From a bacterium (GTDB lineage: Bacteria; UBP18; UBA7526), in assembly GCA_030619985.1 (NCBI GenBank), contig JAUXAI010000060.1, positions 1 to 6,392 on the forward strand: a stretch of DNA of 6,392 nt, written 5' to 3'. Each line of letters opens with the position of its first letter. Position 1 is the first letter of the stretch. Below are positions 2,083 through 5,606 of the stretch, one piece after another. The position numbers were made by a program, and so were the translations under genes. A model generated the notes under the pieces. That model ran no database searches and was not told where the DNA came from. It saw only the letters and a list, made by a program, of their open reading frames with translations.

Positions 2083-2225
2083 CACGGATTACCCAATGCG
2101 CTTCGCCCTGCACCATATGGTTCAGGGCTTCGCTGGCATTCTAGAGAACATCAAATTGATTAATATTTATTCTCTATTGGCGGAGAGCAGAAGCGCGCCA
2201 CTAAATATTAAGCATTGCCACGGAT
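2083..2225 (-). repeat. Dispersed structured intergenic repeat, copy A (glyS leader)
   Basis: A 143-bp element bounded by ATCCGTG heptamers in the same orientation (plus-strand CACGGAT at 2083-2089 and 2219-2225). Read on the minus strand it aligns with plus-strand 4887-5001 at about 80% identity by hand, including shared exact runs CAATGCTTAATATT and TATTAATCAATTTGATG. It folds into a perfect 10-bp AT stem (2160-2169 with 2202-2211) enclosing TGGCG/CGCCA (2178-2182 with 2196-2200). A second hairpin has AATGC/GCATT (2095-2099 with 2136-2140) enclosing GCCCTG/CAGGGC (2105-2110 with 2123-2128) around the palindrome ACCATATGGT. It ends about 20 bp before the glyS start, so it probably lies in the glyS mRNA leader. 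Confidence 0.82.
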
Positions 2226-2414
2226 CACAGATATTATAGCCTATTCAAAGGCATCTGTGTGGACACCCATAAGACTCGAACCTTTTATACTGTGTCGTAT
2301 GCTGAAAGCGGGCGTTTTTTATTATCTCGGATATATTCTTTAACGTTGGAATTAAGCCGCCAAAATCGCACAGCTATCTTGGTCGACTTCAATGACTTAT
2401 TAGCCAGTATTCTT
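2226..2414. other. Non-coding remainder of the glyS/BamE-like gap
   Basis: This is the upstream part of the 351-bp gap 2064-2414. I see no gene with a ribosome-binding site here on either strand. It holds a perfect TATAAT (minus strand, 2233-2238), a CACAGAT heptamer touching copy A (2226-2232), an ATCTGTG at 2253-2259, and otherwise unstructured AT-rich sequence. A GGTTCGAGTC stretch on the minus strand (near 2274-2283) resembles a tRNA T-loop, but no acceptor stem or anticodon arm accompanies it. Confidence 0.5.
2233..2238 (-). promoter_or_regulatory. Candidate -10 element (TATAAT) upstream of glyS
   Basis: A perfect TATAAT on the minus strand, 8 bp upstream of copy A. Transcription from it would start near the edge of the repeat and give a glyS leader of about 160 nt made almost wholly of the repeat. 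No good -35 hexamer lies at 16-18 bp, so the promoter call is tentative. Confidence 0.35.
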
Positions 2415-2795
2415 TCAATCGAGCGCGGGTCTTTCTATGTAAGGCTTCGAAACTTTCGTAGATTTGTCTTCTTTTCCCCAAATAGCCCTGTTTTGGTCAT
2501 CGGGATTTCTCTTGAAAGCAAACTCGACATCTATCTTAAAATATGGACAACTGGAGTGGATAAACCGAACAGGGGATACGGATTGGAGCCCTCCATCCAT
2601 CGGAAACTTCTTCTCAATTTCACTCCTTGTCATACCTGGTTTAATGGATTCAAAGTCTTTGAGGCATTTTTCAACCCATTGAATTCGTTGTCTCATCACC
2701 TTGTCTCGATCGTCTTTCGGTGCAGCGTAGGATCCGCAAACCATCGAGGAAACAATAAATGCCAAAATAATGCTGATACTTGTCATCTTTTTCAT
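2415..2795 (-). CDS. Small exported protein, BamE/SmpA-like
   Basis: A 126-residue protein with a clear signal peptide: MKKM start, hydrophobic core about 6-20, and likely signal peptidase I cleavage after A24 in GSYA-APKDD. The cysteine at 20 lacks a proper lipobox, so I do not call it a lipoprotein. The mature part contains IKPGMTRSEIEKKF (51-64), the G-M-T-x-x-E-(I/V) turn-helix signature of SmpA/BamE-like small folds. It then has a DGGL turn (67-70), SSCPYFKIDVEF (81-92), and a C-terminal VSKPYIERPALD (115-126). I recall this combination from small hypothetical exported proteins in diverse bacteria, with no established function. BamE itself is an outer-membrane assembly lipoprotein; that role should not be assumed here. 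ATG at 2795 has AGGAGG 5 nt upstream, which strongly supports the start. The gene stands alone between two long gaps, about 350 bp before glyS and about 300 bp after the lipoprotein gene. Confidence 0.85.
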   Translation of the reverse strand: MKKMTSISIILAFIVSSMVCGSYAAPKDDRDKVMRQRIQWVEKCLKDFESIKPGMTRSEIEKKFPMDGGLQSVSPVRFIHSSCPYFKIDVEFAFKRNPDDQNRAIWGKEDKSTKVSKPYIERPALD

Positions 2796-2879
2796 TTTAT
2801 CCTCCTGGCTAACATAGGTTTATCTGTACTAATAAAATTACAATTACCGCTATTCCTAACTATATAAGGTCTTCTTTTA

Positions 2880-2993
2880 CGATAAACGTTCAACGATTAA
2901 CGAAACGAGCAGCGCAACCGCCCCTCGCCGTTGGCTCGGGATACTTCACTTCGGCGAGGTATCCTGAACGAAGTGAAGGGCAACCGTTTATCG
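2880..2993. repeat. 114-bp element with 9-bp terminal inverted repeats and competing hairpins
   Basis: The ends CGATAAACG (2880-2888) and CGTTTATCG (2985-2993) are perfect inverted repeats. Three perfect stems lie inside: CCTCGCCG/CGGCGAGG (2923-2930 with 2952-2959), GGATAC/GTATCC (2939-2944 with 2959-2964), and CTTCACTTCG/CGAAGTGAAG (2944-2953 with 2969-2978). They share bases, so at most one of the overlapping stems can form fully at a time. No ORF is evident. The element sits upstream of the BamE-like gene; it looks like a small non-autonomous repeat, or possibly a regulatory structure in the leader. Confidence 0.65.
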
Positions 2994-3000
2994 ATATTTA

Positions 3001-3037
3001 CCCCATACCATTCCGACTTTAAGTCGAAGGTACGGGG
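3001..3037. repeat. Imperfect hairpin downstream of the lipoprotein gene
   Basis: CCCCATACC (3001-3009) pairs with GGTACGGGG (3029-3037) with one mismatch, enclosing the near-palindrome CGACTTTAAGTCG (3014-3026). It lies 55 bp past the lipoprotein stop codon. On the minus strand it is followed by TAAATATC with no T-tract, so it is not a convincing intrinsic terminator. Confidence 0.55.
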
Positions 3038-3092
3038 CAGGTAGATCACAGATAATCACGGATTTTGACTCAAAAACAAGCGGTCGTAAAAT

Positions 3093-3575
3093 TTACTGGA
3101 CTCTGGCTCTCCAGGGTTTAATCCAAAAACCTGCCAATTTCCCTTCGCCGTCCATCACAACCCGAATTTCTGGTCTGGCTTTACTTTCTGAAAAGCGCCC
3201 TTTGAAACGATAGATGACCAACAGCGAGCCGTCTGTCGGCACCCAGGTTTCAACATACTTCATAGACTGGAAGTCACCAAACATTCCTTTGATAGTTTCA
3301 TATGCTTCCTTTTGCTTTTCGGGCGTTAGGGCAGAACGCATAGCTAGTGTGGCCTCATCGCCCAATGGTTCAAACCGCCCATCTCTCTGCGACACAAGAA
3401 TATTAGTGGCAATACGCTCGGCCACTAATTTCATCTCAGTGTCGACTTCCGACTCAGGCAGCTTCCGAAACCGCGAACCACACCCTGTGACAACAAGTGC
3501 AGTCAAAGATATCAAACCGGCCACACATATTGCCCACTTCCAACCGCACAAAATTGACTTTCGATCGCTACGCAT
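3093..3575 (-). CDS. Lipoprotein with DUF3887-like domain
   Basis: A 160-residue protein. The N-terminus has basic residues, a hydrophobic segment (about 13-30) and the lipobox V-T-G-C with C32, so a lipid-anchored mature protein of about 129 residues is expected. The mature part has a helical start (about 43-65), a stretch GRFEPLGDEATLAMRSALTP (66-85) and a beta-rich C-terminal half ending in RVVMDGEGKLAGFWIKPW (138-155). This layout, with a depleted-substrate-like N-terminal helix and a final strand reading VxxDxxGKxAGfxxxP, resembles DUF3887-type domains found in secreted proteins and lipoproteins of unknown function. That match is from memory of the family pattern and is moderate. ATG at 3575 has a purine-rich AAGGA about 6 nt upstream. 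The gene follows recO by 100 bp on the same strand. No enzymatic residues can be named. Confidence 0.83.
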   Translation of the reverse strand: MRSDRKSILCGWKWAICVAGLISLTALVVTGCGSRFRKLPESEVDTEMKLVAERIATNILVSQRDGRFEPLGDEATLAMRSALTPEKQKEAYETIKGMFGDFQSMKYVETWVPTDGSLLVIYRFKGRFSESKARPEIRVVMDGEGKLAGFWIKPWRARVQ

Positions 3576-3593
3576 TCTCTTCCTTTCTTTCCT

Positions 3594-3617
3594 GGGTCAA
3601 CCGGTTTCGGTTAACCC
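3594..3617. repeat. Hairpin in the leader of the lipoprotein gene
   Basis: GGGTCAACC (3594-3602) pairs with GGTTAACCC (3609-3617) through one G-T wobble, with a 6-nt loop. It lies about 20 nt upstream of the lipoprotein start codon, just above the ribosome-binding site. No T-run follows on the minus strand. Confidence 0.5.
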
Positions 3618-3640
3618 TTCTCATTTCTCCGTTTCCTTTA

Positions 3641-3670
3641 TTACCGATTACCGATAACCTGATAACCGGA
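3641..3670. repeat. Short degenerate tandem repeat (TTACCGA/TAACCGGA)
   Basis: Four consecutive units, TTACCGA, TTACCGA, TAACCTGA and TAACCGGA, fill the DNA immediately downstream of the recO stop codon. Function unknown; probably slippage-derived. Confidence 0.55.
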
Positions 3671-3675
3671 TAGCC

Positions 3676-4383
3676 CTATTCTATTGCTTCCAAAAAGTCC
3701 AGGGATTTGAGCCTCTTTCCAATATGATAATGGATGGAATTCTGGAGAACGGTTTTTAGTTCTTTCTTCGTTTCTGAAGAGGTCTTTTTGATTCCGGGAT
3801 TCCTTAAAAAATTCTTGGTCTCGTCTGAGATCCTTATCCCATCCTGGGGATGATGGATGCAGATGAGACCCCCTAAGCCGGGATTGAATTTAAAATTCTC
3901 CTTCAGTTCCTTTTTGCAGATTAGACAACTGTCGAGATGAAGCCCAAATCCTAAGATATCTAAGAGGCGGGTTTCAAAGGCGCGAATGATGATTTCAGAA
4001 TCTTCTCTTTTTTCTAAAAAATGGAGTGCCTTCAAGGATAGATTAAAGAGTGGTTCGTTCTTTTCGCTGGTAGAGACGGCATCTATCAATTCTGCTAAGT
4101 AAGCCCCGTAAGCAACCTTCTTTATATCTTTTCTAATATTGGGAAAGGATTCTTTTGTCTGGCACTCCCCTAAGGTATATAAATCCCTATCTTCTCTTTT
4201 ATAAAAGATGACTGAGTGATGACTTAAGATCTCCAAGGGGCTAAACTTCGACTTCTTCCTTCTTGCCCCCTTGGCTACCCCTCTTATCTTGCCGAAATCT
4301 TTAGTATAAAAGGTGACTATCTTCGAGGTCTCATGCCAGTCTATAGAACCAAGAACGATACCTTGAGTCTTCTGGGGAGGCAT
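3676..4383 (-). CDS. recO: DNA repair protein RecO
   Basis: A 235-residue protein from ATG 4383. RecO works in the RecFOR pathway, loading RecA onto SSB-coated gaps and annealing strands. The N-terminal OB-fold region shows GIVLGSIDWHETSKIVTFYTKDFGKIRGVAKGARR in the family order (residues 8-42, typical G-x-V-L, E-x-x-K-I, T-x-x-x-G). The helical part follows with AYGAYLAELID (91-101). A zinc-finger-like module has C153-x2-C156 and, 18 residues later, C175-x2-H178 (CLIC ... CIHH), where many RecO proteins have four cysteines. Length matches the usual 230-270 residues. The frame extends 17 codons further upstream to 4434, but that extension (MLFTTLLLSYFRAKRGE) is unlike RecO, and GAGGAG sits directly before ATG 4383, so I chose the internal start. 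Downstream neighbours glyS and ppdK fit known bacterial synteny; era, often adjacent, is not seen here. Confidence 0.94.
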   Translation of the reverse strand: MPPQKTQGIVLGSIDWHETSKIVTFYTKDFGKIRGVAKGARRKKSKFSPLEILSHHSVIFYKREDRDLYTLGECQTKESFPNIRKDIKKVAYGAYLAELIDAVSTSEKNEPLFNLSLKALHFLEKREDSEIIIRAFETRLLDILGFGLHLDSCLICKKELKENFKFNPGLGGLICIHHPQDGIRISDETKNFLRNPGIKKTSSETKKELKTVLQNSIHYHIGKRLKSLDFLEAIE

Positions 4384-4437
4384 CTCTCCTCGCTTCGCTC
4401 GGAAGTAAGAAAGTAACAAAGTAGTAAATAGCATCGC

Positions 4438-4473
4438 TACTTTCCTACTCTTCTTCTTTTTTTACTTTCCTAC
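4438..4473. repeat. Direct repeat TACTTTCCTAC in the recO upstream gap
   Basis: The 11-mer TACTTTCCTAC occurs at 4438-4448 and 4463-4473, separated by a pyrimidine-rich stretch. The related TACTTTCTTAC appears at 5610-5620, and its complement-like form GTAAGAAAGTA appears at 4415-4425, so this is another low-complexity intergenic motif of this genome. It lies between the DUF4870-like stop and the recO start. Confidence 0.5.
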
Positions 4474-4474
4474 C

Positions 4475-4828
4475 TTATATTTTAATCTTCTCTGCCAAAT
4501 CACCGGCCAAAGGAATTTTGTACTTCTCTCCAGCCAAGGACTTAATAATCCCGATGAGCATCCCTGCCCAGCAGGTGATCCTTACTATCCAACCTAAGAA
4601 TCTCACATAAGGAATTAAGCAGATGACCCAGCCAACGATGATGCAGCCGAATAGTACCACTCCTTGCTTGGCGTGGAAGGCAACGAACTTATTCTCTTTC
4701 TTGCCAAAGAGAATAATGACGCTCAGAAGCCAGAGATAAGAAAGGGCTGCGAAGACCTTGCCCTCTTCAATCTCTTTTCCCTTCTCGATTTTCTTCTCGA
4801 CTTTTTTCCCTTTCTTTTTCTTCGCCAT
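4475..4828 (-). CDS. Small membrane protein, DUF4870/Tic20-like
   Basis: A 117-residue protein from ATG 4828. A lysine/glutamate-rich cytoplasmic head (1-22, MAKKKKGKK) is followed by three or four hydrophobic segments at about 25-41, 54-73 and 76-99. FVAFHAKQGVVLF (48-60) after the first segment is the hallmark phrase of DUF4870 / Tic20-like bacterial membrane proteins, and the tail KYKIPLAGDLAEKI (102-115) also matches that family. Molecular function is unknown. An open frame reaches upstream to 4879, but those 17 codons cross repeat sequence, whereas GAGGAGGT ends 4 nt before ATG 4828, so the internal start is preferred. The gene is followed by recO after about 90 bp and preceded by a 200-bp gap holding repeat copy B. 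Confidence 0.88.
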   Translation of the reverse strand: MAKKKKGKKVEKKIEKGKEIEEGKVFAALSYLWLLSVIILFGKKENKFVAFHAKQGVVLFGCIIVGWVICLIPYVRFLGWIVRITCWAGMLIGIIKSLAGEKYKIPLAGDLAEKIKI

Positions 4829-4845
4829 AAATACCTCCTCTGATA

Positions 4846-4883
4846 CACGGATAATCACAGATTTTTTACAGATGATCACAGAT
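4846..4883. repeat. CACGGAT/CACAGAT heptamer cluster
   Basis: CACGGAT at 4846-4852, CACAGAT at 4856-4862 and 4877-4883, plus ACAGAT at 4868-4873, immediately upstream of the DUF4870-like gene and abutting repeat copy B. The same heptamers occur in other gaps of the window. Confidence 0.6.
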
Positions 4884-4886
4884 TAA

Positions 4887-5001
4887 ATCCGTGTCAATGC
4901 TTAATATTAAACGGCGCACTTTGTTCTCCGCCGTTGATGATTAAGTATTAATCAATTTGATGCTCTCTAGGATGCTAACGAAGCGCATCCTGTAATCCGT
5001 G
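4887..5001 (+). repeat. Dispersed structured intergenic repeat, copy B
   Basis: A 115-bp element bounded by ATCCGTG at 4887-4893 and 4995-5001. It aligns with the minus strand of 2083-2225 at about 80% identity, with one 27-nt gap and one 1-nt gap. Stems are conserved: TTAATATT with AAGTATTAA-side pairing (4901-4908 with 4944-4951, one G-T), AACGGCG/CGCCGTT (4910-4916 with 4929-4935), and AGGATGC/GCATCCT (4969-4975 with 4985-4991). Relative to the surrounding minus-strand genes it is inverted compared with copy A. It lies between the DUF4190-like and DUF4870-like genes. Confidence 0.82.
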
Positions 5002-5028
5002 TTGTTATCCGCGCTAATCCGTGTTTAT

Positions 5029-5392: not shown

Positions 5393-5495
5393 CACAGATT
5401 CACACAGATAATCTACAGATCTGCACAGATCACAGATAATTGCGAACCTTTGAGAATATGACGATGCGCTTCGCTTGCCTCGTCTAATCACAGAT
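5393..5495. repeat. CACAGAT heptamer cluster with a GATGCGCTTCG hairpin
   Basis: CACAGAT occurs at 5393-5399, 5403-5409, 5424-5430, 5431-5437 and 5489-5495, with ACAGAT at 5415-5420. Between them, GACGA/TCGTC (5460-5464 with 5480-5484) closes a hairpin containing GATGCGCTTCG, an 11-mer also present (complement) in the terminal hairpin of copy B and nearly so in copy A. This looks like a remnant or shorter relative of the same repeat family. Confidence 0.6.
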
Positions 5496-5496
5496 T

Positions 5497-5606
5497 ATCA
5501 GAACATCAGAGTATCAGAATGAGAATTCAGAAAGTCAGATTTCAGATTCAATCTGACTTTCTGATATCTGGCCTTCTTTATCTGATATTCTGGCAATCTG
5601 ATACTC
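5497..5606. repeat. Large nested inverted repeat of ATCAGA/TCTGAT units
   Basis: A perfect 15-bp stem, 5527-5541 with 5550-5564 (core AGAAAGTCAGATT), has an 8-nt loop. An outer 10-bp pair GAGTATCAGA/TCTGATACTC (5509-5518 with 5597-5606) flanks it, and ATCAGA units recur at 5497, 5505 and 5513. It lies between the DUF502 stop and the DUF4190-like start. It has no adjoining minus-strand T-tract, so a termination role is unproven. Confidence 0.75.

Follow-up and report, generated by a model that had tools for sequence, protein, structure and literature searches.

A probable REP/BIME-like family of mobile, non-autonomous DNA hairpins specific to one bacterial lineage

The 6,392-nt stretch of DNA analysed here (the window) carries two similar intergenic sequences, copy A (minus strand, 2083-2225) and copy B (plus strand, 4887-5001), which form an inverted pair 2.7 kb apart and raise the question of whether they belong to a structured family or are the product of a duplication within the window. 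A sequence-only reading had aligned the two over their full length at about 80%, and had proposed that their fold is maintained or that they spread as a structured MITE/REP-like unit. The alignment was reproduced end to end, with 95 of 115 aligned bases identical (83%), one 27-nt and one 1-nt gap, and a local score of 63.8, far above the maximum of 17.2 among 500 shuffles. Copy A is longer than copy B (143 versus 115 nt) essentially because its terminal hairpin holds an apical insertion of 27 nt, made up of the 20-nt near-palindrome CCTGAACCATATGGTGCAGG and a second GCGAAGC. Both are long forms, in which a third (CGGCG) hairpin lies within the loop of hairpin 1. As argued below, we take copies A and B to belong to a family of REP/BIME-like DNA hairpin units that is lineage-specific, mobile and non-autonomous, a reading to which we give a probability of about 0.7. 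Their parts are as follows.

2092-2217, minus strand: copy A, unit proper, long form with apex insertion (C-AATGC...GCATTGGG; boundaries from the family alignment and empty sites)
2178-2200, minus strand: copy A, TGGCG...CGCCA hairpin, long-form module
2092-2143, minus strand: copy A, terminal hairpin 2, outer pairs mismatched
2100-2126, minus strand: copy A, 27-nt apex insertion, CCTGAACCATATGGTGCAGG palindrome and duplicated GCGAAGC
4895-4992, plus strand: copy B, unit proper, long form (115/115 identical at the orthologous G002 site)
4910-4935, plus strand: copy B, AACGGCG...CGCCGTT hairpin, long-form module inside the hairpin-1 loop
4968-4992, plus strand: copy B, terminal hairpin 2, TAGGATGC-TA-ACGAAGC-GCATCCTG
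4845-4894, plus strand: left array, reverse monomers CACGGAT/CACAGAT, then a single forward ATCCGTG
4993-5023, plus strand: right array, forward monomers AATCCGTG/ATCCGCG

Related copies, which are dispersed, intergenic, imperfect palindromes, were found by genome searches and in targeted stretches, in genomes that are all MAGs with a completeness of 53-93%. A DNA search of the genome containing the window (1.25 Mb, 91 contigs, ~84% complete) returned 24 matches, representing five long copies and about 18 short copies without the CGGCG hairpin module of ~50 nt. Built on the short form, a covariance model identified 32, 29, 31, 25 and 9 matches in G000, G001, G002, G004 and G005, respectively (E<=0.1), five genomes of one GTDB family. 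In G003 its only match was weak and involved another kind of capped hairpin, to which a few of the weakest matches in the other genomes also belong (L137-L139). The many intergenic copies with covarying stems that the sequence-only reading had suggested looking for with such a model therefore exist, at about 30 per genome in four genomes. Under stricter filters (E<=0.001), the covariance model gave no match in a further 285 genomes, all but one of which (284) lie outside the GTDB family. In addition, an exact family pattern run across 84,980 species matched only in CSMAG_2684, CSMAG_2709, KR13_S3.mb.88 and HyVt-354, which are G001, G002, G004 and G005 (100% locus identity), and matched no viral contig.

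The basic unit is about 48 nt long and has the form C-AATGC...GCAT-NNNG. It consists, in order, of the left end CAATGC, hairpin 1 (GC-T-TAA...TTA-T-GC), an unpaired conserved tag (mostly CTCTC, with CACCC also occurring) and hairpin 2, which has an 8-bp stem, a 2-nt bulge and the mini-hairpin RC-GAA-GY. Across 82 copies of hairpin 2, 98.2% of cells are paired and both-sided changes occur at 4 pairs, giving the matched arms TAGGATGC/GCATCCTG, TCGGATGC/GCATCCGG, TCCAATGC/GCATTGGG and TAGAATGC/GCATTCTG, and G-C versus A-T around GAA at the apex. None of 500 shuffles reached the covariation score of this hairpin, and pairing falls to ~23% when the partner is slid by one column. Similarly, in the two-hairpin structure of 33 short copies 99.2% of cells are paired and 8 of 15 pairs are doubly changed (score reached by 0/500 shuffles), four of the compensated pairs lying in hairpin 1. 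The model alone turned up copies of a fifth arm class, TACGATGC/GCATCGTG, which the training set lacked; this class was not forced, since the outer arm positions were free in the scan pattern. The terminal inverted repeats extend to CCAATGC/GCATTGG in one class and over only 3-4 bp in the others, and were rejected as the covarying partner, because the left end stays CAATGC/CATTGC in every arm class; the partner in pairing is therefore the near arm.

Covariation, strong in the short unit, is weak in the long-form CGGCG stem, which is nearly invariant, with a single double change in 14 copies, that of copy A itself. Most of the two-copy evidence offered by the sequence-only reading is accordingly weak, and it is the other copies that supply the proof. 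The T-A versus C-G difference at the base of the TGGCG/CGGCG stem is present, but no other of the 14 long copies has a double change at this pair, and the next outward pair is broken in copy A. The A-T versus G-C difference in the terminal stem is also present and is strongly supported family-wide, although copy A itself has mismatches at two further, outer pairs of the stem (TAGAATGC / GCATTGGG). The A-T/G-T wobble in the AT-rich stem can likewise be seen, as a one-sided change. The general proposal of a maintained fold, or of spread as a structured unit, nevertheless gains support from the compensatory changes in both hairpins, together with the filled and empty orthologous sites described below.

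The copies are embedded in arrays of ~7-nt monomers (ATCCGTG, ATCTGCG, ATCACTG, ATTCGTG and others). On the right of the unit, monomer matches number 153 forward and 7 reverse; on its left, forward monomers adjoin it and reverse monomers lie further out, so that the orientation of the unit within the array is fixed. A forward ATCYGYG monomer borders the unit on each side, the junctions being precise and the orientation constant. Copies A and B do share ATCCGTG ends, as had been observed, but these are monomers of the flanking arrays, and a 115-nt unit with such ends was rejected because empty sites set the boundaries inside it. The arm class of the hairpin is associated with the type of the adjacent array (chi2 113, 0/2000 permutations), and the same arm class is also found in different array types. 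A giant stem formed by the left and right array arms was rejected given their weak co-variation (z 2.8 overall, 0.9 within class).

Several further observations concern the arrays and their surroundings. Within the window, intergenic arrays of ATCYGYG/CACRGAT monomers occupy 4845-5023, 3047-3066 and 5394-5440; at 5490-5600 a short repeat array of another kind (ATCAGAACATCAGAGTATCAGAAT) precedes a 20-nt inverted repeat. Several of the six family genomes often show the ATCTGTG pair pattern, which is present too in some other lineages, and a whole array can switch monomer type at orthologous sites (L018/L165, L114/L172). A text search of the literature gave no match to the array sequences, which is not evidence that they are undescribed.

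Orthologous flanks traced into G002 revealed three cleanly empty sites in which the array continues (L117/L146, L009/L166, and L011 and L073 versus L072), from which it follows that the family has moved. The insertions are in fixed orientation between two array monomers, and their junctions define the unit as C-AATGC...GCAT-NNNG. No target duplication was found at the filled and empty sites L117/L146, L009/L166 and L011/L072; a reading of CAT/AAT at the junctions as a target duplication was dropped, as several copies contradict it. The site of copy B is filled in G002 by an identical sequence, and that of copy A is empty there and in G001 holds two tandem copies, one long and one short. Copy A itself resembles a fusion of such a tandem pair, which is probably how it arose. 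One orthologous site carries the long form in G000, the short form in G002 and, in G001, a long form with an additional hairpin nested in it. Compared with G002, about 6 of the G000 copies are shared and about 20 are missing, some with their whole array island (L113 could not be assigned), counts that are approximate because the islands themselves turn over. Between copies in the same genome, flank identity drops to ~0.27, near background, beyond ~15-30 nt on either side, and long flanks are common to only 6 of 1130 same-genome pairs. This abrupt loss implies that the moving piece is at most the unit plus about one monomer per side, and disfavours long-tract gene conversion. Separately, a 126-aa ORF (window 2415-2795, minus strand) and ~0.95 kb around it (about 2230-3040, copy A included) are absent from the orthologous place in G002; the ORF is absent from that of G001 too.

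The longer forms are, on balance, best explained by the insertion of other hairpin modules at hairpin apices. Either of two modules can occupy the loop of hairpin 1, the CGGCG module or one of 52 nt (TTTCGAGCAAAGYGAGAAACAAGGTTCTTGAGCGAAGCGAAAGGCTTCCTTAT; L173-L202; L058, L033, L032), which also exists as a dispersed repeat in its own right, with 12-25 matches per genome, so that one inserted module spreads independently of the unit. The apex of hairpin 2 carries insertions of the CCTGAACC palindrome or others, including, in two other genomes (L090 and L123), a module like that of copy A, and L044 has a palindrome inside the CGGCG loop. Every insertion seen is at a hairpin apex, in a search anchored on hairpin 2 that could therefore miss insertions destroying this hairpin. 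Other hairpins (L136-L139, L083 and L096) carry the apex GC-NA-RCGAAGY-GC on different stems, for example GACGAGGCAAACGAAGTGCATCGTC, tandem in G003, and CTCAAGGCAAACGAAGTGCATTGAG; this apex pattern occurs 23-38 times in five family genomes, twice in G003 and about 0-11 times in others. Another hairpin family, CCCCATACC...GGTACGGGGCAGG / CCCCGCACC...GGTGCGGGG, is found near ATCYGYG arrays at 3001-3041 in the window and in L008, L010 and L045.

How might these units have been copied? One model, which we hold at roughly even odds, is that a hypothetical trans-acting enzyme would copy the unit as folded single-stranded DNA, reading the tag and hairpin and joining the unit next to a forward monomer. 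Copying in this form would explain why both arms change together. A Y1 transposase (PF01797) was not found in the six genomes, with 5 control genomes positive, and the IS110 domain was present in G003 only; because the genomes are 53-93% complete, the assemblies could lack an enzyme gene that the organisms possess. Against the enzyme model, the association between arm class and array type fits copying by array homology as well.

That association keeps in play the main rival, which we think improbable though worth weighing, namely that there is no dedicated transposase and that replication template switching or short-tract exchange between similar ATCYGYG monomers copies the unit, with one arm templating the other (quasipalindrome correction). 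Template switching would fit the failure to find a REP-type transposase in six genomes, the way in which hairpin class tracks adjacent monomer type, the constant position and orientation between forward monomers, and empty sites that lack a target duplication. It is also in line with whole islands that sometimes share flanks or switch type, and with arms that change jointly, leaving few one-sided intermediates. The exchanged tracts would, however, have to be very short, given how soon flank identity is lost and how few pairs have long flanks; furthermore, the same class occurs in different array types, and within a class the left and right array arms match only weakly above shuffled pairs (z 0.9). 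A further reading, which we also think improbable, is a nested hairpin system that does without a dedicated transposase, in which folded single-stranded DNA units would insert at the apices of other hairpins and spread by the host replication/repair machinery, their arms being co-corrected during copying; the unit would thereby sit within the arrays, the CGGCG or 52-nt module within hairpin 1, and further palindromes within the CGGCG hairpin and hairpin 2.

It is very unlikely that the family is a structured RNA, such as a small RNA or a cis-regulatory leader, with selection acting on the fold of the RNA, even though the covariation is strong and many intergenic copies lie near start codons. 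The copies take both orientations relative to genes (36 antisense and 27 sense in codirectional gaps, 8 divergent and 5 convergent), G.T is no commoner than A.C among the non-Watson-Crick cells (7 versus 6), and Rfam 15 gave no family at the gathering score and only a chance-level miRNA match (E 0.73), which together argue for a palindrome at the DNA level. Neighbouring genes are, moreover, very different, and copies are often absent at orthologous sites. Finally, a recent local inverted duplication, to which the spacing of the two inverted copies in the window might have pointed, has next to no probability, being refuted by the ~30 dispersed copies genome-wide, by the nearest relatives of copy B lying on other contigs (90-93%, against just 82% for copy A), and by copy B being common to G002 where the site of copy A is empty.

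Mobile DNA hairpin units thus remain our preferred reading, and several known systems invite comparison. BIMEs are intergenic mosaics of hairpin modules in which REPs of opposite orientation alternate; the family is likewise an intergenic mosaic of such modules, but here they are nested at hairpin apices. DDE MITEs generate a target duplication, and IS200/IS605 elements, which use a Y1 enzyme, do not. As in MITEs and IS200/IS605-derived PATEs, the units are small and non-autonomous with precise junctions, and the absent target duplication resembles IS200/IS605; unlike in these elements, we found no long terminal inverted repeats, no target duplication of the DDE-MITE type and no cognate Y1 enzyme. 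Of the label MITE/REP-like, the REP-like part therefore fits better than the MITE part.

REPs are defined by GTAG or CGTC tags (PMC3733652), and in GTAG REPs TnpA-REP recognises the tag and bulge in single-stranded DNA (PMC8266576). The units resemble REP/REPIN elements of this GTAG super-family (TnpA-REP/RAYT) as short, dispersed, intergenic imperfect-palindrome hairpins with an unpaired 5' tag and a stem bulge, which lie mostly between codirectional genes and keep pairing in their stem variants. They differ in their tag (CTCTC or CACCC, not GTAG), in the lack of a Y1 transposase gene in any family genome (all incomplete MAGs), in copy number (~30 rather than hundreds), and in their obligatory second hairpin and location inside ATCYGYG arrays; on account of the tag and the transposase, we do not file them as RAYT-REPs. 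CGTC REPs are also tagged hairpin repeats with no dedicated transposase known (PMC3733652), but we did not see their CGTC tag (or TGTC/CCTC), their CCA tails or their stems of 8-9 bp closed by 4-5 nt loops. At its apex, hairpin 2 has either GCGAAGC or the compensated ACGAAGT, recalling the very stable isolated d(GCGAAGC) DNA mini-hairpin with its reported Tm of 78 °C (PMC4686876), a value that belongs to the isolated form and not to the longer natural stem found here.

We therefore read the family as a new REP/BIME-like mobile hairpin family; in a poorly known bacterial lineage, it offers unusually clean covariation and precisely defined empty sites, with no RAYT detected. Taken with the CGTC REPs, for which no transposase is known (PMC3733652), it makes the mover of such hairpins a directly testable question, for which the five related genomes supply short, long and nested forms, some of them at the same orthologous site.
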